The translations under genes and the position numbers were made by a program. Shown piece by piece: positions 4,673 to 5,843 of a DNA stretch of 64,000 nt. How positions within the stretch are numbered: the first letter of the stretch is position 1; each line of letters opens with the position of its first letter. Source of the DNA: Flavobacteriales bacterium. Its GTDB lineage: Bacteria > Bacteroidota > Bacteroidia > Flavobacteriales_F > PHOS-HE28. The stretch lies in assembly GCA_019912395.1 (NCBI GenBank), contig JAIOIH010000024.1:1-64000 (forward strand). The letters run 5' to 3'. The notes under the pieces were generated by a model that saw only the letters and a list, made by a program, of their open reading frames with translations, did no database searches and was not told where the DNA came from.

Positions 4673-5746
4673 CTATTCCGCTCGGCCCCCCAACCAGGAC
4701 TTCAGCACCCGCTCCAGGTCCCCATCCTCTTTCATGTCCAGCATTTCCACGTCCACGCGAGGCATGTAGGGCGAATGCATGCCAAAGGCGAACCCGTATC
4801 CTTGGGGCTGGTACCGGGCGGCCGATACGGCCATCTCCTTGTCGTGTTTATTGCGGAAGAAGTAGAGCAATTGGGGGCGGTCAAAGACGATGGCATCCAC
4901 GCGCTTGTCCTTCAACGCGGCATAGCAGGAATCCAGGTTGGCCGCCGGGATGGCCCGCCCTCCGTGATCGGTGACGAAATCCACGGCGGGCGATCCCTCC
5001 AGGACGGCCACGCGCTTGCCCGGTAATTTGTCCGCCGTATCGATCACCGTATGCCCGAGTCCGGTCAATGTGAGCGTACTGGCGATACCGGCCACCATGG
5101 AGGTGGCGAAGGCGATGGAGACCACCATCCAGCTTCCGGCGATAATGCGGCCGGCCAAGGTAACCGGCGCGATGTCCCCATAACCGGTGGTGCTCATTGT
5201 GACGATGGCGCACCACATGCCATTGCCGATGCCGCGGAGCGGGGCTCTCGGGAACTGTTCGGGGGAGGCCTTCCGTTCGGCCAGCCAGAGCAGTGTGCCC
5301 ACAATGGCCAGGACCAAGAGGAACACCGCCAAGGCATAGAGCAGTTTCACGTTCAGGAAAGGACGTATCCGGTCCCAGGCCCCCAGCTTGTCCTTGCGGG
5401 AAAGAATGGAAAGGCTGGACCGGAAGTAGGGTTGGGTGAGGTCCATCCGGGCCACCCGCTCCGAACTGATGCTCACGGGACCTACCACGGCATCCACTTC
5501 TCCGGCCATCAGGGCATCCAAGGCATCCGGTACGGAAGGATAGGAGCTTGTGGTGTAGCGCAGGTCCATCCGGTCGGCGACGTTATCCCAGATCTCCATG
5601 GAGATCCCGCTGATACCGCTGGTGACAAAGGGTGGAGTACCCGCCACGGCTACACGCAGCACCGCGGTGTCCGGGGAAACTGAAGCCAGCCCCGTGAAGG
5701 GCAAAAGAGAATAGGGCAAGAGGAGGACAAGTGATCGGAAGGTCAT
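4673..5746 (-). CDS. GluR0-like ligand-gated potassium channel (prokaryotic ionotropic receptor)
   Basis: A 357-residue protein from ATG 5746; the frame extends to 5974, but this start begins a proper signal peptide (MTFRSLVLLLPYSLLPFTG). Domain order: periplasmic-binding lobe 1 (about 29-130), membrane helix (133-156), pore loop with the potassium filter TTGYGD (186-191), second membrane helix (199-222), then binding lobe 2 (230-350). A binding domain split by a two-helix pore is the architecture of GluR0 and of eukaryotic glutamate receptors without the third helix. Arg97 and Asp289 sit where amino-acid receptors hold the ligand carboxylate and amino groups. Ligand and conductance are inferred. 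It stands alone. Confidence 0.9.
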   Translation of the reverse strand: MTFRSLVLLLPYSLLPFTGLASVSPDTAVLRVAVAGTPPFVTSGISGISMEIWDNVADRMDLRYTTSSYPSVPDALDALMAGEVDAVVGPVSISSERVARMDLTQPYFRSSLSILSRKDKLGAWDRIRPFLNVKLLYALAVFLLVLAIVGTLLWLAERKASPEQFPRAPLRGIGNGMWCAIVTMSTTGYGDIAPVTLAGRIIAGSWMVVSIAFATSMVAGIASTLTLTGLGHTVIDTADKLPGKRVAVLEGSPAVDFVTDHGGRAIPAANLDSCYAALKDKRVDAIVFDRPQLLYFFRNKHDKEMAVSAARYQPQGYGFAFGMHSPYMPRVDVEMLDMKEDGDLERVLKSWLGGRAE

Positions 5747-5835: not shown

Positions 5836-5843
5836 CAAATGTA
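5836..5843 (-). promoter_or_regulatory. -7 box (TACATTTG) for the channel gene
   Basis: A perfect Bacteroidota -7 element, TAnnTTTG, on the minus strand 90 bp before ATG 5746. Transcription would begin inside the upstream extension of the frame, which supports the shorter protein. No clear TTTG was seen at the usual spacing. Confidence 0.5.

Follow-up and report, generated by a model that had tools for sequence, protein, structure and literature searches.

A gene for a predicted GluR0-type ligand-gated potassium channel with a TTGYGD filter in a Flavobacteriales genome

The gene and its upstream region

In the window, the whole stretch of 64,000 nucleotides of Flavobacteriales DNA that was analysed, translation of positions 4673–5746 gave one unbroken open reading frame for 357 amino acids, which runs on the minus strand from position 5746 to position 4673. 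On the plus strand of 4673–5746 the frame is interrupted by stop codons, and a plus-strand reading of this segment was rejected for that reason. An earlier sequence-only reading had proposed a complete gene here without naming a strand; the uninterrupted frame from ATG to stop agrees with this and places the gene on the minus strand. The neighbouring genes encode a metallo-beta-lactamase-fold (MBL-fold) hydrolase, a Rieske protein, a ComEC-like competence protein and ribosomal protein S1. The features of the gene are collected in Table 1.

Table 1. Features of the channel gene and its upstream region (positions in the window)
Feature	Position	Strand	Basis
Bacteroidota-type −7 box (TAnnTTTG), TACATTTG, starting 97 nt upstream of the ATG	5836–5843	−	pattern match; upstream regions of same-genus copies
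Complete gene for a predicted GluR0-type ligand-gated K+ channel, 357 aa	4673–5746	−	ATG at 5746, stop at 4673–4675; sequence, Pfam, PDB matches, alignment, structure
Signal-peptide-like N-terminal segment, residues 1–26	5669–5746	−	sequence, low pLDDT, region identities
S1 half of ligand-binding domain, residues 27–125, with P90, S92 and R97 of the alpha-carboxylate site	5372–5668	−	Pfam, PDB alignment, conservation, structure comparison
R97, predicted contact to ligand alpha-carboxylate	5456–5458	−	at least 90% conserved; aligns with GluR0 Arg
M1 transmembrane helix, residues 133–157	5276–5350	−	DSSP of model
Pore helix and re-entrant loop, residues 169–191	5174–5242	−	Pfam, conservation, model
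K+ selectivity filter TTGYGD, residues 186–191, T187 for the usual V	5174–5191	−	alignments
M3 pore-lining helix, residues 197–229, containing ATSMVAGIASTLTLTGL	5060–5158	−	alignment, DSSP of model
S2 half of ligand-binding domain, residues 230–354, with G251-S252-P253, D289 and Y317	4685–5059	−	Pfam, PDB alignment, structure comparison
D289, predicted contact to ligand alpha-amino group	4880–4882	−	at least 90% conserved; aligns with GluR0 Asp

The −7 box that had been cited in support of the gene is indeed present, although its pattern occurs in the window at chance frequency (8 found, 8.0 expected). The pattern lies within 300 nt upstream of four of the six same-genus copies, which is above the rate seen in the window; A+T-rich spacers could explain part of this excess. 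Scans for sigma-70-type promoters and for intrinsic terminators found nothing.

Domain layout and predicted structure

The Pfam profile SBP_bac_3, a family-3 solute-binding domain, spans residues 30–353 of the protein and is interrupted by the pore domain, which matches Ion_trans_2 (residues 153–225) and Lig_chan (residues 142–239). The binding domain split by a two-helix pore, as it had been read from the letters alone, is borne out by these matches and by the structural model. At the N-terminus a hydrophobic stretch preceded by a basic residue can be recognized by eye, and pLDDT is low over residues 1–26 of the model. The protein has two transmembrane helices and a re-entrant P-loop, and the chain ends after S2; both the M4 helix and the amino-terminal domain of eukaryotic-type iGluRs are absent. 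The segment ATSMVAGIASTLTLTGL in M3 presumably occupies the position of the iGluR gate motif SYTANLAAF.

The best NCBIfam matches are to GlnH and related binding proteins, which would fit the amino-acid-binding protein of an ABC transporter mistaken for a channel. However, the match reaches 81.8 bits against a family cut-off of 303, and a two-helix K+ pore with GYGD breaks the domain. This annotation was rejected on the domain order, with the pore inserted, and on scores far under the family cut-offs, and its probability is practically negligible.

The AlphaFold2 monomer model, built with 62 aligned relatives, has a mean pLDDT of 91.3 and a pTM of 0.80. M1, the pore helix (residues 169–185) and M3 separate one half of the binding domain from the other, so that a split periplasmic-binding domain is present in the predicted fold. 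VIA-align ranks the Synechocystis GluR0 core with L-glutamate first (1ii5; Z 30.3, rmsd 1.7 Å over 217 residues) and the Nostoc GluR0 core second (2pyy; Z 29.9), with glutamine-binding proteins (GlnH structures) just below. The top Foldseek chain is an AMPA receptor LBD-TMD, aligned along the entire model (E 7.6e-22), followed by 1ii5. By sequence, the best PDB relatives are 2pyy (E 1.3e-27) and then 1iit/1ii5 (E 1.8e-25), all of them GluR0 ligand-binding cores. The assignment as a ligand-gated K+ channel of the GluR0 type, made earlier from the sequence, is supported: GluR0 is matched in fold, in domain order, in the filter and in both contacts to an alpha-amino acid.

Ligand site

R97 and D289 had been taken to suggest an amino-acid-like ligand. 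Both are placed correctly, align with the Arg and Asp of GluR0 and are at least 90% conserved in two alignments of 19 and 62 relatives, which reach down to 24–25% identity. In the same alignments GYGD is invariant, so neither the filter nor the binding residues lack conservation among homologues. Alignment with GluR0 and AMPA receptors indicates that P90, S92, R97 and D289 retain the contacts to an alpha-amino acid, with the AMPA receptor equivalents being those that we take to correspond to these four residues. The segment contacting the ligand side chain reads G251-S252-P253 here, D-T-T in GluR0 and G-S-T in the AMPA type. As the alpha-amino-acid contacts are kept and the side-chain segment is GSP, the ligand is likely to be an alpha-amino acid, for which glutamate is just one candidate; glutamate itself is not assured because the side-chain pocket differs from that of GluR0 (GSP against DTT).

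That a GluR0-like channel of the same architecture binds another alpha-amino acid or a related compound (for example glutamine, serine or a hydrophobic one) comes close to an even chance. This is a sub-case of the periplasmic amino-acid-gated channel proposed below, and the two probabilities are not to be added. The four retained residues combined with the replacement of both D-T-T and G-S-T by G-S-P speak for such a ligand, as do the glutamine-binding GlnH as the top family profile and the rank of the GlnH structures directly under GluR0; the order of profiles among family-3 binding proteins does not, however, determine the ligand. In one same-genus orthologue (L005, minus strand, 1489–2568), His stands at the R97 position and G-A-A at the side-chain contact while the pore is intact, and the ligand site of this copy has apparently changed.

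Selectivity filter

The filter, T186-T187-G188-Y189-G190-D191, carries Thr at a position that is Val or Ile in most K+ channels and in nearly all relatives. It had been described as a textbook TTGYGD; the sequence and its nature as a K+ filter stand, and "textbook" is slightly too strong, as T187 takes the place of the usual V/I in what is a V-to-T variant of TVGYGD. Thr at the second filter position is found in eleven rows of the tree, this gene included, which form one Bacteroidota branch (SH-aLRT 96). All other rows with an intact filter have TVGYGD, in a scan that admitted only V or T at this position and that other variants would escape.

Owing to the Thr, the protein might be a ligand-gated cation channel without strong K+ selectivity. 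The presence of T187 in all rows of the clade and of V in nearly all other relatives fits this possibility, which we nevertheless regard as quite improbable: GYGD is invariant, and the plant channels KAT1 and KAT2, which a review takes up in its section about plant Kv channels of high K+ selectivity, have a native TTGYG filter (PMC8644596). Thus, K+ selectivity stays the default expectation for this channel. It is rather unlikely that the Bacteroidota clade with the Thr filter forms a functionally distinct branch of the prokaryotic iGluRs, in which permeation or gating would be altered and the ligand would be other than glutamate. Literature searches brought up no direct match for TTGYGD, for GluR0 Arg117 or for Bacteroidetes members, and the TTGYGD clade is not mentioned in main-text passages of Ger et al. 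2010 (PMC2950845).

Two further sequences were observed. In the same phylum, L049 (genome G334; minus strand, open frame from base 1255 of the reverse complement) has the S1-M1-P-M3-S2 layout with AIMFIGSSDGYPQ in place of TMTTVGYGD, and from its sequence is possibly a filter-less or non-K+ prokaryotic iGluR. The copy of Cyclobacterium qasimii (L056:3887–5004), which belongs to the TTGYGD clade, consists of two overlapping frames split in M1, the result of either a frameshift or an error in sequencing.

Selection and history of the locus

Comparison with the nearest same-genus copy (73–74% identity) gave a dN of 0.20 and a dS of 1.5, showing strong purifying selection on this copy. Among five same-genus relatives the pore segment is 81–96% identical and the signal-peptide-like segment (residues 1–26) only 19–35%. 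The observation is far beyond chance, given these dN and dS values and homologues over many phyla.

In four same-genus relatives the gene adjoins the MBL-fold gene, and in two of these four rpsA is also within reach. The MBL gene and rpsA are adjacent, with the channel gene absent between them, in the same-genus genomes G002, G004 and G017, and G002 has its channel copy elsewhere in the genome; this empty site is seen in the same-genus loci L138, L139 and L143. This indicates that the gene has been gained, lost or moved. Its absence from most same-genus genomes, of which seven out of 45 possess it, makes it dispensable. The operon was also considered as a clue to the ligand and set aside: the MBL gene was found in 37 of 39 relatives, channel present or not, so the neighbourhood says nothing on the ligand.

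In the same-genus orthologue L003 (2020–2030), TAG replaces the W178 codon in the pore and the rest is open and conserved; this copy may be a pseudogene or, the assemblies being multi-contig, an assembly error. A decaying or non-functional receptor gene retained by chance could be suspected from the patchy occurrence in the genus, the three empty sites, the TAG in L003 and the lost ligand Arg in L005. Against this, the copy studied here is intact, its filter, R97 and D289 are all in place, and both the substitution rates and the pore identities in relatives argue for a maintained gene, so that decay is very improbable.

Distribution and phylogeny

Of 395 genomes sampled from the phylum, 31 contain a relative at E < 1e-20. 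Scanning GTDB species genomes by the filter pattern gave at least 437 confirmed relatives, which may include some pore-only matches. The best 80 of these were retrieved, and nearly all of the 80 carry S1 and S2 besides the pore. Among them are members of Bacteroidota, Chlorobiota, Pseudomonadota, Myxococcota, Thermodesulfobacteriota, Spirochaetota, Verrucomicrobiota, Planctomycetota and Gemmatimonadota, and one ANME-2 archaeon bin. Such receptors had been called rare in bacteria. Considering the counts in phylum and genus and the spread over many phyla, this is overstated and "patchy" is the right word; Ger et al. 2010 already gave 12 "Group 1" channels (PMC2950845).

In the tree of ligand domains, one larger branch unites Synechocystis GluR0 with the clade of this gene and two Myxococcota/deltaproteobacterial sequences; the exact joint has weak support. 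The same-class and same-genus rows group with named Flavobacteriaceae, which points to class Bacteroidia for the genome of the window. The sequence from the ANME-2 bin (L096:3959–5020) encodes a GluR0-like channel whose filter is TVGYGD and lies on a possibly archaeal contig of 214 kb, flanked by MMPL exporter and ADH genes; Ger et al. 2010 reported none in archaea (PMC2950845).

Proposed mechanism

The gene product belongs to the GluR0, or prokaryotic "Group 1" iGluR, family. Experiments on GluR0 have established that its topology is inverted, that it mediates K+ uptake in E. coli and that both soluble halves are needed (PMC13099474). Together with homology, this precedent makes a periplasmic amino-acid-gated K+ channel the most likely function, and we consider it highly probable that the protein is an inner-membrane homotetramer of this kind. 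By analogy with GluR0, its topology, tetrameric state, ligand gating and K+ selectivity would be the same. We propose that the putative signal sequence directs S1 into the periplasm, that M1 and M3 span the inner membrane with the P-loop entering from the cytoplasm as an inverted K+ pore, and that S2 lies back in the periplasm, where it would complete the clamshell binding domain. R97, S92 and the P90 backbone would bind a periplasmic alpha-amino acid at its carboxylate and amino group, and D289 at its amino group. The bound ligand would close the clamshell, pull on M3 and thereby open the K+-selective pore. Such a channel may serve in fast K+ flux or in a volume or membrane-potential response to amino acids or salt outside the cell.

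Comparison with known channels

The GluR0 family was described in cyanobacteria 25 years ago. Its members join an amino-acid sensor to a K+-channel pore, like a minimal brain glutamate receptor, and serve as the usual model of the fusion in which a bacterial binding protein was joined to a K+ pore to give the receptors of animal synapses. Few of them, mostly cyanobacterial, have been studied.

GluR0 of Synechocystis sp. PCC 6803 (slr1257; cores 1ii5, 1iit and 1iiw) shares with the present protein the S1-M1-P-M3-S2 order, the GYG filter, the Arg and Asp ligand contacts, the fold and the side of the ligand-domain tree; the signal-peptide-like N-terminus would correspond to the signal sequence of GluR0. 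The ligand domains are only 32% identical, the side-chain contact is DTT instead of GSP, and the GluR0 filter presumably has V at the position of T187. The Nostoc punctiforme GluR0 core, the best PDB match by E-value, is about 31% identical in the ligand domain and branches outside the clade of this gene and Synechocystis GluR0. AMPA, NMDA and plant GLR receptors have the LBD, the M1-P-M3 core and the position of the M3 motif in common with this protein, which differs from them in having a K+-type filter and neither amino-terminal domain nor M4. A glutamate-type binding domain flanking two transmembrane helices and a K+ filter, with conserved Arg and Asp, defines "Group 1" in Ger et al. 2010 (PMC2950845), and all of these are found here. 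Plant KAT1 and KAT2 share the TTGYG filter; unlike this protein they are voltage-gated, have no ligand-binding domain and carry the pore in the opposite orientation.

The gene and its relatives extend the GluR0 side of the family to Bacteroidota and Myxococcota. They add material to a known family and leave its picture unchanged, and the clade-specific filter change is a modest one. As a natural V-to-T change in one clade, it can be directly compared with GluR0 and KAT1.
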